Below, in pieces: positions 2,450 to 60,682 of a stretch of DNA of 64,000 bases. This DNA is from Mycolicibacterium arabiense (GTDB lineage Bacteria > Actinomycetota > Actinomycetes > Mycobacteriales > Mycobacteriaceae). Location: NCBI RefSeq assembly GCF_010731815.2, contig NZ_AP022593.1, positions 4,278,001-4,342,000 on the forward strand. Reading direction: 5' to 3'. Numbering within the stretch: the stretch's first letter is position 1; each line of letters starts with the position of its first letter. The translations under genes and the position numbers were made by a program. The notes beneath the pieces were generated by a model that saw nothing but the letters and a program-made list of their open reading frames with translations, was not told where the DNA came from and did not search any database.

Positions 2450-2481
2450 CGCGTTCCTTCGCTCTTCGCGCAAGCGCTCAC
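2446..2481 (-). repeat. MIRU-like micro-cistron: 11-residue ORF coupling two genes (copy 1)
   Basis: Reading the minus strand, a GTG at 2481 opens a 12-codon frame, MSACAKSEGTR-stop. Its GTG overlaps the TGA of the upstream FAD oxidase (GTGA, 2478-2481) and its TGA overlaps the ATG of the downstream methyltransferase (ATGA, 2446-2449). Removing 32 bp would leave a normal 4-bp overlap. The core TGAGCGCTTGCGCGAAGAG is identical to the two tandem copies near 60.0 kb. The variable part here supplies GAAGGA, a good ribosome-binding site for the methyltransferase. Confidence 0.75.
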
Positions 2482-3857
2482 CGTCTCTGCACCGCTTTCG
2501 CGTAGAGGTCGAGCAATCGTGAATCGGGGTCGTAGGTCTTCTTGACGGTCTGGTACTTCTCCCCGCCATAGAGCGCACCAAACTCCTCGGGGGAGTAGTA
2601 GGCATCGGAGTAGAGCGACTTGTGGCCTTCGAGTTCGCTGACTTCGTGTTCGATCAGCCTGTTGGTGTGACCCTCCTCGGGTCCGACCGGAACCGACGAC
2701 CAGAAGCCGATGTTGACGTAGGTGTGCTGCGGCCGGATCGGGTACAGCGGCCACCCCGACTCGTCGCGCAACCGCAACGGACACAACCAGATCGGCTCGA
2801 TCGGGACATTGGCGAGGAACCAGTCGAGGAACTCGGCCGTCCGTCCGATCGGCACCTCGACGTCCTGCACCACCCGTTCGCGCGGCGGCCTACCGTTGCG
2901 CTTCTCGAGGCGGTCGGCGATGTCGAACCGCTGGTCGTAGCCGATCAGCTTCCAGTAGAAGCTGCTGCGCCGGAACCGTCGCGGCCACAGTCGGCGCAGC
3001 CTGGGGTTCTGCGCGCCGAACGCCCGGGAGCACCAGAACCAGTCGGTGTCCCAGCGCCACAGGTAGTCGTGGATCGTGAGGCGGTCGCTCTTGACGCCGT
3101 CGTCGTGCTGGATCGAGCGGTAGTACACGTCCTGGCCGGTGTAGTCGCTGACCGGTCCCGCCGTCCCCGTCCTGACCCCGAGGGTCAGATAGCACTCGTC
3201 GGCGCTGAACACGACGCCGTCGAGGTAGTCGACTGGGGCACCGTCGATTCCGCCGGTCTCGACGATGCGCTCCATCGTCTCGACGAGTTCGGTCAACGAC
3301 GTGAAGCGCAGGTGCCGCAGCGCGACGAACGGCTTGACCTCTTCGAGTTCGATCTTCAGCCGGACCGAGTAGCCAAGCGTGCCATAAGAGTTGGGGAAGG
3401 CGCGGAACAGATCGGCGTGCTGCTCACGCGATGCCGTGAGCACCTCGCCGGTGCCGGTCAGGATGTCCATCTCCAGCACCGACTCGTGCGGTAGGCCGTT
3501 GCGGAAGGACGCCGACTCGATGCCCAGACCGGTGACCGCCCCGCCGAGGGTGATGGTCTTCAGCTGCGGAACCACCAGCGGCGACAGCCCGTAGGGCAGG
3601 GTCGCGGCGACCAGATCCTCGTAGGTGCACATCCCGGCCACGTCGGCGGTGCGGGCCTCCGGATCGACGGAGATCACCCCGGTCAGGCCGGAGGTGTCGA
3701 GACCCTTGGCGGTCGCCTTCGCTCGAGCCCGAAAGAGGTTCGACGTAGCCTTCGCCAGGCGGACGGTTGCGTCGGGCGGGATGGCGCGATAGCTCTTCAG
3801 CAGTCTCTCCACGCCTGCTGCGTGGGCCGACTGCGCTTCCATGGATGCAACAGTCAC
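2478..3857 (-). CDS. FAD-binding oxidoreductase (BfaA/TmsA-like partner)
   Basis: FAD-linked oxidase of the PCMH/FAD-binding-4 type, 459 residues. The dinucleotide-binding stretch TITLGGAVTGLGIESASF sits at 101-118, followed by NGLPHES, typical of the family that includes DWARF1/24-dehydrocholesterol reductases. It precedes the fatty-acid methyltransferase on the same strand. The likely role is reduction of a 10-methylene acyl chain to the 10-methyl form, inferred from the known mycobacterial pair. The GTG at 3857 lies just downstream of a TATATG hexamer (3864-3859 on the minus strand), so the transcript may be leaderless; an ATG at 3842 is the alternative. The promoter region is shared with the divergent SRPBCC gene. 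Confidence 0.82.
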   Translation of the reverse strand: MTVASMEAQSAHAAGVERLLKSYRAIPPDATVRLAKATSNLFRARAKATAKGLDTSGLTGVISVDPEARTADVAGMCTYEDLVAATLPYGLSPLVVPQLKTITLGGAVTGLGIESASFRNGLPHESVLEMDILTGTGEVLTASREQHADLFRAFPNSYGTLGYSVRLKIELEEVKPFVALRHLRFTSLTELVETMERIVETGGIDGAPVDYLDGVVFSADECYLTLGVRTGTAGPVSDYTGQDVYYRSIQHDDGVKSDRLTIHDYLWRWDTDWFWCSRAFGAQNPRLRRLWPRRFRRSSFYWKLIGYDQRFDIADRLEKRNGRPPRERVVQDVEVPIGRTAEFLDWFLANVPIEPIWLCPLRLRDESGWPLYPIRPQHTYVNIGFWSSVPVGPEEGHTNRLIEHEVSELEGHKSLYSDAYYSPEEFGALYGGEKYQTVKKTYDPDSRLLDLYAKAVQRR

Positions 3858-56530: not shown

Positions 56531-57849
56531 AGCTTGCCCGACGCCTTCATCGCGAGGTAGCGGTCGGCGAGTTCCGGTGCAAGGTCTTCGGGTTCGGCGT
56601 CGACGACGTCGACGCCGTGACGCCGCAGCCGAGCGGCCATCGCCAGCCGCTCGTTGCGCGAGCGTTCGGCGGCCGCTGCGTCGTAGACTTCAGCGGCGTC
56701 GGCCCGCCCTGCGGCCAGCGCGTCGACCCGAGGGTCGGCAACCGCGGCGACCATCACCTGGTGCTTGGCCGCCAGTTGCGGCAGCACGCTCATCAACCCT
56801 TCGTCGAGCGCCGACGGGTTGAGGTCGGTCAGCAGGATCACCAGCGCCCGCCTGCGGATGCGCCGCTGCACGGTCGCCACCATCGCGGCGGCGTCCGATT
56901 CGACCAGTGCGGGCTGCAGCGGCGCCATCGCCTCGACGAGGTGGGCCAGGAGTTCGGTGCGGGACGCGTTGAACACCCCTGCCCGCGAGACGCGGTCGTG
57001 GGCGATGAAGTCGACGTGGTCGCCCGCGCGAGAGGCCAACGCCGCCAGCAGCAGTGCGGCGTCCATCGACCAGTCCAGCCGCGGCCAACCGCTGGGGTCG
57101 CTCGACGTGGGGTCGATGCCGACGCGGCCCGCCGACGTGCGGCCGGTGTCGAGGACGATGACGATGCGGCGGTCGCGTTCGGGACGCCACGTGCGGACCA
57201 CGACATCGGCGCGCCTAGCAGTCGCGCGCCAGTCGATCGACCGGACGTCGTCGCCGACGACGTACTCACGCAGCGAGTCGAATTCGGTGCCCTGGCCACG
57301 GATGAGGACCGGGACCATGCCGTCGAGCTCACGCAACTTCGCCAGCCGCGACGGCAGGTGCTTGCGGGACAGGAACGGTGGCAGGATGCGGATCTGCCAC
57401 GGCACCCGGTGCGAACTCTGCCTGCCCGCCAAACCCAGTGGGCCGAGCGCACGCGCGGTCACGACCGCGGAGCGCTGATCGCCGCGGCGCATCGGCCGCA
57501 GCGTGGTGACCACGCCGTGCCGGCGTCCCGCCGCGACGTCGACGTGATGCATGCGCGGTTCGGCGCGCGCCGAAGGCGACCAGGCATCGCGGACGACCCC
57601 GCGGAAGCGACGGCCGCCGACGTTCTCGACCACCAGCGTGGCGTCGACGGGCTCGCCGAGGCGGGCCGCCGTGTCACCCGAGCGGGTGAACGTCAGCCGT
57701 CGGGTGCCCGCGGCCAGCGCCACGTCGGCGACCACCGCCGCCACCAGGAGGACCAGCAGGACCACGAACGTCGCTGCGGGCCAGGGAGACAGGCCGACGG
57801 GCAGAACGCACAGCAGTGCGATCAGTCCCGTGCGGCCGGTGAGGAACAC
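56527..57849 (-). CDS. DUF58 domain protein (MoxR partner)
   Basis: A 440-residue protein with two N-terminal membrane helices (LTGRTGLIALLCVLPVGLS, FVVLLVLLVAAVVADVALA), a beta-sandwich region, and DUF58 (GTEFDSLREYVVGDDVRSIDWRATARR), followed by a von Willebrand A-like fold with RIVIVLDTGRTS. DUF58 proteins are obligate neighbours of MoxR AAA+ chaperones. The GTG at 57849 shares its G with the moxR stop (TAGTG), so translation is coupled. Likely a membrane-bound substrate or adaptor of MoxR. Confidence 0.87.
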   Translation of the reverse strand: MFLTGRTGLIALLCVLPVGLSPWPAATFVVLLVLLVAAVVADVALAAGTRRLTFTRSGDTAARLGEPVDATLVVENVGGRRFRGVVRDAWSPSARAEPRMHHVDVAAGRRHGVVTTLRPMRRGDQRSAVVTARALGPLGLAGRQSSHRVPWQIRILPPFLSRKHLPSRLAKLRELDGMVPVLIRGQGTEFDSLREYVVGDDVRSIDWRATARRADVVVRTWRPERDRRIVIVLDTGRTSAGRVGIDPTSSDPSGWPRLDWSMDAALLLAALASRAGDHVDFIAHDRVSRAGVFNASRTELLAHLVEAMAPLQPALVESDAAAMVATVQRRIRRRALVILLTDLNPSALDEGLMSVLPQLAAKHQVMVAAVADPRVDALAAGRADAAEVYDAAAAERSRNERLAMAARLRRHGVDVVDAEPEDLAPELADRYLAMKASGKL

Positions 57850-58835
57850 TAGCGGGGGACCGGGACCGAGGCCAGGATGCCGTCGAGGACGCCGTCGGGG
57901 TTGGCGCCCTCGAGTTCGGCTTCGGGCCGCAGCGCGATGCGATGTCGCAGGGTCGGTCGTGCCATGGCCTTGACGTCGTCGGGCGTCACGTAGTTGCGAC
58001 CCGACAGCCACGCCCACGACCTCGCGGTCGACAGGAGAGCGGTCGCGCCACGCGGTGAGACGCCGAGCTGCAGCGACGGCGATCGCCGTGTGGCACCGGC
58101 GATGTCGACGATGTAGCCGAGGATCTCGTCGGCGACCAGGACCTGCGCGACGGCCGCGCGGCCGGCGGCCAGTTCGGCCGGGCCGGCCACGGGACGGACG
58201 GCCGACAGGTCGCGCGGATTGAAGCCGTGTGCGTGCCGCGACAGGATGGCGACCTCCTGATCGCGCGGTGGCAGTGGCACGTTGAGCTTGAGGAGGAACC
58301 GGTCGAGCTGAGCCTCGGGCAGCTGGTAGGTGCCCTCGTACTCGATGGGGTTCTGCGTCGCCGCGACGATGAACGGGTCCGGCAGCGGTCGCGCCTCGCC
58401 GTCGACGCTGACCTGACGCTCCTCCATCGCCTCGAGGAGCGCCGCCTGGGTCTTGGGTGGGGTGCGGTTGATCTCATCGGCTAGAAGCAAATTCGTGAAC
58501 ACCGGGCCGGAACGGAACTCGAACTCGGCGGTCCGGGCGTCGTAGATCAGCGAACCCGTGATGTCACCGGGCATCAGGTCGGGCGTGAACTGCACCCGCT
58601 TGAAGTCCAGTTGCAGTGCGGCCGACAGCGTGCGCACCAACAGCGTCTTGGCCACGCCCGGCACGCCTTCGAGCAGCACGTGGCCGCGGCAGAGCAGCGC
58701 GATCACCAGGCCGCTGACCACGGCGTCCTGACCCACGACCGCCTTGCCGATCTCGCCGCGCAGGGCGAGGAGCGCGTTTCGTGCGGAGTCCGGGTCGGAT
58801 TGTGTGGGGTGGTGGGCGGGAGTTGGCACTGTCAC
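57849..58835 (-). CDS. moxR: MoxR family AAA+ ATPase
   Basis: A 328-residue AAA+ chaperone. Walker A is LEGVPGVAKTLLVRTL. Walker B is LLLADEINRTPPKTQAALLEAMEE, which is the MoxR signature, and sensor motifs follow in AATQNPIEYEGTYQLPEAQLDRF. GTG at 58835 overlaps the DUF4350 stop (GTGA). It is one of several MoxR proteins in mycobacteria (moxR2 by position). Probably assembles or activates an envelope complex with the DUF58, DUF4350 and DUF4129 proteins. Confidence 0.92.
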   Translation of the reverse strand: MTVPTPAHHPTQSDPDSARNALLALRGEIGKAVVGQDAVVSGLVIALLCRGHVLLEGVPGVAKTLLVRTLSAALQLDFKRVQFTPDLMPGDITGSLIYDARTAEFEFRSGPVFTNLLLADEINRTPPKTQAALLEAMEERQVSVDGEARPLPDPFIVAATQNPIEYEGTYQLPEAQLDRFLLKLNVPLPPRDQEVAILSRHAHGFNPRDLSAVRPVAGPAELAAGRAAVAQVLVADEILGYIVDIAGATRRSPSLQLGVSPRGATALLSTARSWAWLSGRNYVTPDDVKAMARPTLRHRIALRPEAELEGANPDGVLDGILASVPVPR

Positions 58836-59968
58836 GACTGGGAGACCTGCCTTTCGATGTCGTCCAAGTTGTTGGCCAGGGTGACCAGCTCGGTGTCGGT
58901 GCTGGGCGTCGGCCCGAACAACCAGTGTGCGTGGGCATTCGGATCGCCGCCGATGCGCGATGCGACGGCTTGTATCACGGCGGGCGGATCGCTCGTCGCG
59001 GTCAGCCCGAGGCGCGGCAGCATGCGTTGCAGCGTGCCCGTTCGCAAGGCATCGGCAGCGCGGTCGCGGGCACGCCGAGACCGGTACAGCCTGCCGCGGC
59101 CCTCGACGGTCTCCGATGCCCGCACCACGACCGGAATTTCCTCCGCCACCAGGGGGCCTACCCGTCGGCCGCGCCACAGCGCGACGAGCAGAACGGCAAG
59201 GCACAGCTGCAGCACGATCCACGCCACCCGGTCGGGGATGAGGTCGGTGACGGACGCGGTGGAATCCGATTCGCCCTCGACGAAGGTTGGCACGTACCAG
59301 ATCACGCGGTCGCGGCTACCGACGAGGTTCATCGCGAGGGCGGCGTTGCCCTCCTTGGCCAGCTTGGCGTTGGTCATGAAGTCGGCGGTGCCGACGGTCG
59401 TGATCGTGCGCTCGCCGTCGTTGTAGCGGACCAGCGCGCCGCCGTAACAACGGGTCAGGTCGACGCCGCCCGCGGCCTCGTAGGTGGCGCTGGTGCCGAG
59501 TTCGACGGCACCGGCGCGCTCGGCTTCGCGCATGTCGCAGTCGGGTTCGCCGCCGAAGCTGGTCTCGTCGGCGACCGAGATCTCCGGAGCGAGCACTTCC
59601 CGCGTGGGGGACACCGGCTGCACCAGCAGCCGGTCGCCCGGCAACCCGGCGAGGGCGCGCAGGCCGTCGTCGTCGACGAGGAAGTACGTCTCGGCCACGA
59701 CGAGCAGGGTGTCGGGCCGTGCCGCGCGGCGTACCTCCTCGAGACTCGATGCGTCGATGACCTCGACGCCCTCCTCGCGGAGCAGCGAGACCAGGGCCCG
59801 GACGCCGTCGGGGGAGGTGGACTCCGGGTCCATCGGCCCGCCCGGATGCGACTCCGTCAGGTACGTGGTGAGCACCGACACCGCGGTGATGACGCCGAGT
59901 GCCAGCAGCACCCAGCGGATGGTGCGCCAGCGCTGGCCGACGGACTGCCCGATTACGGTGTCGCTCAT
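58832..59968 (-). CDS. DUF4350 domain membrane protein
   Basis: A 378-residue protein. The first helix is WVLLALGVITAVSVLTTYL. A long extracytoplasmic GATase-like/DUF4350 part follows (TSPDGVRALVSLLREEGVEV, RPDTLLVVAETYFLVDDDGLRAL). A second membrane helix (WIVLQLCLAVLLVALWRG) and a cytoplasmic tail close it. The ATG at 59968 overlaps the TGA of a tandem micro-cistron. Conserved member of the MoxR/DUF58 block (Rv3691 position); biochemical role unknown. Confidence 0.83.
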   Translation of the reverse strand: MSDTVIGQSVGQRWRTIRWVLLALGVITAVSVLTTYLTESHPGGPMDPESTSPDGVRALVSLLREEGVEVIDASSLEEVRRAARPDTLLVVAETYFLVDDDGLRALAGLPGDRLLVQPVSPTREVLAPEISVADETSFGGEPDCDMREAERAGAVELGTSATYEAAGGVDLTRCYGGALVRYNDGERTITTVGTADFMTNAKLAKEGNAALAMNLVGSRDRVIWYVPTFVEGESDSTASVTDLIPDRVAWIVLQLCLAVLLVALWRGRRVGPLVAEEIPVVVRASETVEGRGRLYRSRRARDRAADALRTGTLQRMLPRLGLTATSDPPAVIQAVASRIGGDPNAHAHWLFGPTPSTDTELVTLANNLDDIERQVSQS

Positions 59969-60032
59969 CGCGACTCGACTCTCTTCGCGCAAGCGCTCAT
60001 CGCGACTCGACTCTCTTCGCGCAAGCGCTCAT
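59965..60032 (-). repeat. Tandem MIRU-like micro-cistrons (two 32-bp units, copies 2 and 3)
   Basis: Two identical 12-codon frames, ATG at 60032 and ATG at 60000, each encode MSACAKRVESR-stop. All junctions are ATGA overlaps: DUF4129 stop to unit 1 (60029-60032), unit 1 to unit 2 (59997-60000), unit 2 to the DUF4350 start (59965-59968). The core TGAGCGCTTGCGCGAAGAG and terminal CGCGATGA are shared with the copy at 2446-2481; eight bases between them differ. Confidence 0.8.
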
Positions 60033-60682
60033 CGGACTTCAGCCCATCCGCCACGTTCACCATCGCCGGCAGTCGACTCGACCGCCGACGAGGCACGGGT
60101 GCCCAGGTGGTCGTCGAGGTCGGCGACGAGGCGGTACTCGGCTTCGGTGCCCGGCCGCTCACCGTAGGTGACGTCGTTGAAGACGTCTGCAGCGCGACGC
60201 AATTCGGTGCGCAGTGCCGGGAATGGGGCACTCGCGTCACGTGCGAGTTCGGTGGCCGTGCGGCCGGGCACGGCGGTCAGCACTGCGCTCTCCTCGAGGC
60301 TGCGTGCGACGGCGCGCAGCCGGTGCCGAATGGCCACCGCCCACTCGCCGCTCGCAGCGGCCCGGTCGGCCGCGGCGCGGTGCTCGGCGGCCGTGAGTTC
60401 CTGGCTACCGTACAATGTCGCGTCGTGTCCGCGGTCGGTTCGCATGGTGCGCAGCGCTATCCGCGCGGCGACCACGATTGCGGCAGCGACGATCGCGAGC
60501 AGCACCCCGATCGTTATCCAACCGCCGGGGATCGACGATCCCTCGACCATCAGCTTGTAGATCAGGTCGTCGACCCAGTCCCCGATGCGGTCGGTCAGCG
60601 ATGCCCTCGGGTAGATGGGTTTGGACAGTTCACGTTGCGCGGCGTCGCGTGCGGCATCGCCGTCGATGTCTAGAGCCGACAC
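60029..60682 (-). CDS. DUF4129 domain membrane protein
   Basis: A 217-residue protein with a periplasmic-type N-terminal part (ELSKPIYPRASLTDRIGDWV), one membrane helix (WITIGVLLAIVAAAIVVAARIAL) and a C-terminal DUF4129 helical domain (EWAVAIRHRLRAVARSLEE, TATELARDASA, FNDVTYGERPGTEAEYRLVADLD). GTG at 60682 starts one base after the upstream stop. Part of the MoxR/DUF58 block (Rv3690 position). Its stop is coupled to the tandem micro-cistrons. Confidence 0.83.
   Translation of the reverse strand: MSALDIDGDAARDAAQRELSKPIYPRASLTDRIGDWVDDLIYKLMVEGSSIPGGWITIGVLLAIVAAAIVVAARIALRTMRTDRGHDATLYGSQELTAAEHRAAADRAAASGEWAVAIRHRLRAVARSLEESAVLTAVPGRTATELARDASAPFPALRTELRRAADVFNDVTYGERPGTEAEYRLVADLDDHLGTRASSAVESTAGDGERGGWAEVR

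Follow-up and report, generated by a model that had tools for sequence, protein, structure and literature searches.

The two identical 32-bp units that separate a DUF4129 gene from a DUF4350 gene in Mycolicibacterium arabiense are most probably copies of a dispersed, near-neutral repeat of the genus that resembles the mycobacterial interspersed repetitive units (MIRUs), is gained or persists at stop/start overlaps, keeps translational coupling across them, and expands and contracts in tandem. Our analysis revealed insertion of the units, a preference for gene junctions, a frame rule, and a copy number that changes between species. MIRUs, which Supply et al. reportedly described in 1997, are small units with overlapping ORF ends that were proposed to insert at DTGA coupling sites, and they serve in the typing of tuberculosis strains. 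Judged from its sequence and distribution, the 32-bp unit is a real, mobile, genus-wide repeat that would work like MIRU in its placement while lying outside the MIRU length range. It is a 32-base repeat spread through many environmental mycobacteria, mostly at stop/start overlaps, and the overlap is kept in frame.

Two 32-bp units in the DUF4129/DUF4350 junction

The analyzed DNA, hereafter the window, is a whole stretch of 64,000 nt from M. arabiense (GCF_010731815.2, NZ_AP022593.1, 4,278,001-4,342,000), and window coordinates are used throughout. Read directly, the minus strand carries the two units at 60032-59969 between the two genes, and together with the next ATGA (60032-59965) it shows the pattern ATGA-28-ATGA-28-ATGA, that is, ...AAGTCCG ATGA GCGCTTGCGCGAAGAGAGTCGAGTCGCG ATGA GCGCTTGCGCGAAGAGAGTCGAGTCGCG ATGA GCGACACC (Table 1). 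Tandem Repeats Finder reported a period of 32 with a score of 147 at this junction. Unit 1 translates as MSACAKRVESR*, unit 2 has the same bases, and each micro-ORF begins within the stop codon before it and ends within the start codon after it. Sequence and translation thereby confirmed the preliminary description, which had reported two identical MSACAKRVESR-encoding units and an ATGA overlap at each junction. The gene order is DUF4129, DUF4350, MoxR-type ATPase, and DUF58. Between 59800 and 60200, Rfam detected nothing above the gathering score, and its sole match, ASdes, lies outside the units. This sub-threshold match (20.5 bits, gathering 40; 60075-60139, plus strand) overlaps the DUF4129 gene end in antisense orientation and is probably due to chance.

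Table 1. Units, micro-ORFs, and genes in the window
Feature	Position	Strand	Remarks
32-bp unit 1	60001..60032	-	First ATGA (60032-60029) contains the DUF4129 gene stop
32-bp unit 2	59969..60000	-	Identical to unit 1
Micro-ORF 1, MSACAKRVESR*	59997..60032	-	Stop overlaps the micro-ORF 2 start
Micro-ORF 2, bases as micro-ORF 1	59965..60000	-	Stop overlaps the DUF4350 start
Third ATGA	59965..59968	-	Micro-ORF 2 stop and DUF4350 start codon; used in the empty-site comparison
Upstream gene, DUF4129 (PF13559, E 2e-12)	60029..60682	-	
Downstream gene, DUF4350 (PF14258, E 9.8e-28)	58832..59968	-	
MoxR-type AAA_3 (AAA+) ATPase gene, next after the DUF4350 gene	57849..58829	-	Start codon assumed
Further unit of the family, GTGA...ATGA, spacing 32	2450..2481	-	Junction of an FAD_binding_4 gene (2478-3857) and a CMAS methyltransferase gene (1136-2449)

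Empty sites and turnover of copies in relatives

The units are inserted DNA, because the empty site of a relative is a plain overlap and 64 bp shorter. Two near relatives, G486 and G533, were found among 396 genomes. In the nearest, G486, whose two flanks are 91% and 95% identical to those of the window junction, the DUF4129/DUF4350 junction is a plain CGATGAGCG overlap (reading AAGTCCGATGAGCGACACC; with flank, ...GGGCTGAAGTCCGATGAGCGACACC), and the window is exactly 64 bp longer, in line with the earlier claim that a plain 4-bp overlap would be left without the units. The junction of G533 is also empty (CAATGAGCG). The unit was absent from this junction in all 29 more distant relatives compared (the best 30 matches minus the M. 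arabiense genome); the exact 4-base overlap aligned in six of them, and in the others the start was unresolved or different. At L198 (relative G070), the same junction holds a different insert with GCGAGCGAAGCGACGGGGG twice, 30 bases apart, and this 19-mer occurs once each in four G486 stretches (L467, L478, L491, and L498). The L198 insert may represent a further dispersed repeat that occupies such sites.

At the 2450-2481 site, 19 of the 29 relatives showed plain 4-base overlaps and four had clear units (copy numbers 1, 1, 2, and 3); in the remaining six, the inserts were short and either degraded or of another kind. Three further sites were filled in 7, 4 (one degraded), and 3 (one of them degraded and of B type) of 29 relatives. 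For a comparison of turnover, 39 M. arabiense arrays (at most three mismatches, all subfamilies) were considered, of which 20 were placed in G486 stretches. Repeats were present in both genomes at 18 of these 20, and copy number differed at five (M. arabiense vs G486: 3 vs 2, 1 vs 2, 1 vs 3, 2 vs 3, and 2 vs 1); the remaining two were the window site, empty in G486, and one with a different repeat in G486. The 19 other arrays comprised eight ATGA-type sites empty in G486, two sites where G486 lacks the CGAG-type repeat of M. arabiense, two alike in both genomes, and seven not located or not alignable. In the reverse direction, 32 of 52 G486 arrays (at most two mismatches, five of them CGAG type) had no counterpart among the unit sites of M. 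arabiense. The suggestion that copy number might be variable thus held between species (5 of 18 sites; 0-3 units at the 2450-2481 site).

Naturally occurring variants of a single junction, carrying 0, 1, 2, or 3 inserted couplings, offer a means to measure the cost of termination-reinitiation, and the units are candidate VNTR markers for Mycolicibacterium. As far as an excerpt of PMC2734929 describes them, mycobacterial VNTR/ETR loci are alike in being tandem and variable in copy number; they are defined by variability alone, whereas the family of the unit is dispersed and favors a particular place and frame.

Distribution in the genome, the genus, and beyond

The conserved part of the unit is YGATGAGCGCTYGCGCGAAGAG, followed by about 10 variable bases, and its core is GCGCTYGCGCGAAGAG; in the usual 32-base arrangement, each copy is an 11-codon cistron. 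A search of the window with the 19-base core at up to three mismatches gave three matches, all exact (shuffled mean 0.05), corresponding to the two junction units and the 2450-2481 unit. At the same threshold, the M. arabiense genome (6.45 Mb) contained 50 matches, 27 of them exact, and five for the reversed pattern. When the genus was sampled evenly, a 20-base pattern (at most one mismatch) was present in 77 of 118 genomes, with a largest per-genome count of 72 and 38 copies in M. arabiense, and the reversed control was found in 0 of 118. The core is therefore not confined to the junction at which it was first noticed. In a family-wide sample searched with a 21-base pattern, 14 of 21 genomes of the same genus were positive against 0 of 230 from 30 other genera, and the reversed control occurred once, in one genome of another genus. 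An exact scan of named genomes returned at least 120 stretches. Among the 80 matches listed, 74 carry Mycobacterium, Mycolicibacterium, or Mycobacteriaceae names, and the other six (L081, L088, L092, L123, L135, and L137) are differently labelled metagenome bins, which may be mis-binned. For the label "fast-grower" in the preliminary description, the basis is the organism names among these matches. Searches with the unit gave one weak phage match only (E 0.1) and no plasmid match. We found no description of the 32-bp unit in searches of the open PMC literature, and both the core letters and MSACAKR/MSARAKR were absent from the open PMC main texts searched.

These counts bear on the idea that no repeat is involved and that the matches reflect chance or the conservation of coding sequence for a DERLREE-like protein motif. 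A minority of matches, mostly of the CGAGCGCTTGCGCGAGGAG form, do lie in frame inside an ORF (L034, L038, and L040), but the empty reversed control in the genus sample and the exact 64-bp gain over the empty site refute this idea for the ATGA-type units, and its overall probability is close to nil.

Placement at stop/start junctions

Placement was assessed with gene calls from a codon-usage score trained on the window, using arrays with at most one mismatch. The 32 arrays in M. arabiense include 24 flanked by co-directional genes; in 21 the first YGATGA contains the upstream stop, and 20 combine this stop with a downstream start 18-47 bases from the last core. The corresponding counts for 44 arrays in G486 were 34, 34, and 28. 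Junction arrays thus made up 48 of 76 in the two genomes, compared with 35 of 2965 unoccupied YGATGA hexamers in G486 under a matched rule (Fisher p 1e-62); as the G486 stretches are not a random sample of the genome, the share of junctions that are occupied cannot be read from these hexamer counts. A stricter rule gave 33 of 2965 in the same stretches, and in 40 stretches not chosen around G486 units, 17 of 1451 unoccupied hexamers were junctions. The proposal of a MIRU-like family at DTGA coupling sites was upheld by 20 of 32 and 28 of 44 arrays in the two genomes; since the core is found widely and junction arrays are frequent, it is neither restricted to this place nor found mostly outside junctions. 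Nevertheless, placement at stop/start junctions is a preference, not a rule: 28 of the 76 arrays lack one or both features, three are antisense to both neighbors, and in two the upstream reading frame continues through the unit.

The nine sites empty in G486, counting that of the window and judged by eye, comprised five with a DTGA overlap (window, L001, L008, L013, and L028), one with only a CGATGA start codon (L007), one a few bases before a GTGA (L029), and two elsewhere (L011 and L015); the last three therefore do not coincide exactly with an overlap or a start codon. YGATGA stands before 122 of 130 first units having A before TGA (CG 94, TG 28), a count that includes a few loci from the 21-base family-wide pattern, which required the G. 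Among unoccupied ATGA overlaps, CG precedes 9 of 52, and the commonest unoccupied overlap is GTGA (72 of 137). This excess means either that YGATGA is preferred or that the first two bases travel with the unit. At L011, a 30-base insert begins with CGATGA where the empty place has none, which favors the latter, at least at this locus.

The first tails also repeat the left flank beyond YGATGA, with at least five bases left of ATGA in 26 of 162 against 4.9 expected, a signal that a degraded older unit on the left would yield in the same way as a target-site duplication. At the cleanest empty site, the window junction, only CGATGAGCG is common to unit and target, with no further duplication. At L029 (M. 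arabiense, C2:1017446), a 5-base direct repeat, CAAGT, brackets one unit where the near relative has a single CTTGT; this repeat looks like a target-site duplication.

Frame of the spacing and proposed coupling

The distance from the ATGA of the last unit to the next ATGA was 2 mod 3 in 57 of 64 cases (p 2e-20) in sets not selected for frame, although these spacings are not all independent because sites common to M. arabiense and its relative were counted twice. Of the 2 mod 3 spacings, 41 are 32 and the others are 35, 29, 26, 41, and 23, with exceptions at 30, 33, and 22. When spacing 32 was excluded, 16 of 23 remained in this class (p 4e-4). By set, the counts were 17 of 21 in M. arabiense (p 1e-5), 14 of 16 in genus-sample loci, 22 of 23 in relatives, and 4 of 4 in ortholog loci. 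The frame test did not cover 72 of 136 arrays that had no ATGA in range, of which 19 terminate in GTGA or TTGA; the other 53 have neither of these ends, and some of them are CGAG-type matches.

Steps between units in tandem arrays were 32 in 76 cases, 33 in 34, 31 in 5, 30 in 4, and 35 in 1 (n=120, with many loci chosen by the exact-scan pattern), and a 33-base step fuses the units into one longer ORF. Subfamily C (ATGAGCCGCTTGCGCGAAGA) has a core one base longer and still shows spacing 32 in four of six copies; subfamily B (TGACGAGCGCTTGCGCGAGGA) shows it in both copies of one array. Subfamily B, as TGACGAGCGCTTGCGCGAGGAR or close to it, was also seen at stop codons (L042 2065-2130, L044, and L338), and the other CGAGCGCTTGCGCGAGGAG matches at L038 and L040 are instead the in-frame ones within an ORF. 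As C is frame-shifted relative to A, the two encode different peptides at the same spacing, so the coupling frame is kept and not the peptide. No peptide conservation was found in the core, where substitutions at codon positions 1/2/3 number 29/10/3 and 27 fall at one T/C site. On this substitution pattern and the frame shift of C, a conserved functional peptide was rejected. Internal stops in the micro-ORF frame were found in 12 of 145 distinct 32-bp units against a shuffled-tail mean of 16.8 (lowest count in 300 tail shuffles, 11); they are not clearly rarer, and selection on the whole micro-ORF beyond its spacing is therefore not established.

We propose that the repeat is gained and retained at overlapping stop and start codons, with YGATGA or, in a wider sense, DTGA as the site. 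The micro-cistron would start in the stop of the upstream gene and stop in the start of the downstream gene, so a ribosome ending gene 1 would reinitiate on the micro-cistron, terminate, and reinitiate on the next gene. Inserted units would turn one coupling into two or three, and copies would later grow and shrink in tandem. The repeat is probably tolerated because termination-reinitiation coupling is preserved. Synthetic bicistronic designs, mentioned in an excerpt of PMC12548453, would be comparable in using a short leader cistron to bring ribosomes to the gene coupled to it; they are engineered, whereas the unit is natural, mobile, and without an improved Shine-Dalgarno sequence.

Relation to MIRU

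According to the relevant part of a review (PMC12548453), MIRUs insert at start codons and the MIRU ORF is coupled with -4 spacing. An excerpt of PMC2734929 gives a unit length of about 40-100 bp, and one of PMC4213456 names a 53-bp MIRU and restricts MIRUs to M. leprae and the M. tuberculosis complex, a statement perhaps meant for one intergenic region. Searching with a MIRU core (at most three mismatches), whose form was then read from the matches, we detected MIRU-type cores in 65 of 118 genus genomes, often at tandem steps of 51-54, with none for the reversed control; the M. arabiense genome gave no match at this threshold. The MIRU core is far more widespread than that excerpt of PMC4213456 states. 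The MIRU arrays read here have a period of 53 or 51 and the core GATGCAGAGCGCAGCGATGAGGAGG, and most copies span DTGA to ATGA.

MIRU and the 32-bp unit are both short repeats dispersed in mycobacteria, with tandem copies, a DTGA-to-ATGA span, and a coupled ORF. The unit displays the MIRU-type features of many dispersed copies, stop/start placement, a frame-keeping small ORF, and a copy number variable between species, but differs in its length (32 bp, also 30, 31, 33, and 35), which falls outside the MIRU range, in its core, and in occupying largely different genomes of the genus. With a threshold of at least three copies, 54 of the 118 genomes had the unit only, 47 MIRU only, five both, and 12 neither (Fisher p 1e-15, Spearman -0.72), a reciprocal distribution in which the two patterns allow different mismatch numbers and the statistics ignore shared ancestry.

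It is possible, though rather doubtful, that the units are true MIRUs in shortened form, belonging with the MIRU of other species to a single mobile family. The consensus unit aligned with bases 1-34 of a MIRU consensus (GCAGAGGGCACCG against GCAGAGCGCAGCG, score 30, p 0.0024 by shuffling; 7 of 2000 in a second run), and this reading would also fit the same kind of place, spacings of 53 and 32 that are both 2 mod 3, and the reciprocal distribution. However, only 65 of 145 distinct single units exceeded 95% of shuffles, single copies of subfamilies C (108 of 2000 shuffles) and B (401 of 2000) were not significant, and 6.5% of random ATGA-starting genomic 32-mers reached the unit median of the MIRU alignment, so a shared start and base composition could produce the match. 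On sequence, kinship of the unit with MIRU is a lead and at most suggestive. An equally tentative conjecture is that the unit and MIRU are sister lineages of minimal, transposase-less selfish DNA exploiting YGATGA, made harmless by restored coupling at nearly every copy, which have divided the genus, one largely replacing the other. Because environmental species carry another family, shorter than MIRU and with sites that are empty in some near relatives and filled in others, the reasons for the placement of MIRUs in coupled junctions and the manner of their spread become testable.

Possible regulation and comparison with other repeats

The preliminary description also suggested that the units may tune DUF4350 translation; this idea gained no support from ribosome binding site strength, RNA structure, or peptide conservation. 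More generally, a regulatory role, in which copy number tunes downstream translation through attenuating couplings or a new ribosome binding site, appears unlikely. Copy number does vary at several junctions; repeat length upstream of M. tuberculosis fpg1 tracks the fpg1 mRNA level in an excerpt of PMC2734929, and, in one of PMC4213456, regX3 can be driven independently of senX3 by an intergenic region that contains a MIRU. Against this, pairing of the last 20 bases of the unit with the 16S tail (mean -6.48, n=162) was not better than for the native flank (-6.59) and weaker than for shuffled units (-7.63), no stable RNA fold was found relative to shuffles (z 0.23, -0.10, and -0.57), and the presence and number of units often differ between near relatives. 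A portable ribosome binding site and an RNA hairpin were dropped on the basis of these pairing values and fold scores, respectively. The best-supported reading is a coupling-preserving insert, whose units ribosomes would translate and which is probably near-neutral rather than regulatory.

REP/BIME elements with RAYT transposases are short, present in many copies, and located between genes, and the unit resembles them in these respects. It differs in lying within stop/start overlaps, in forming no stable hairpin, and in belonging to a genome without a Y1 transposase. Mobilization of the units as REP-like palindromes by a Y1 (RAYT) transposase is accordingly disfavored and very improbable: a short, dispersed, G+C-rich repeat with a partly palindromic core would suit it, but Y1_Tnp (PF01797) was not found in the M. 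arabiense genome despite the 38 copies and is present in only 21 of 118 genus genomes, and no fold exceeded shuffles. Enterobacterial RU-1/2/3, described in an excerpt of PMC2759123 in which start/stop coupling goes unmentioned, are likewise small mobile intergenic repeats carrying ORFs; they differ from the unit in measuring 103-168 bp and in being likened to MITEs.
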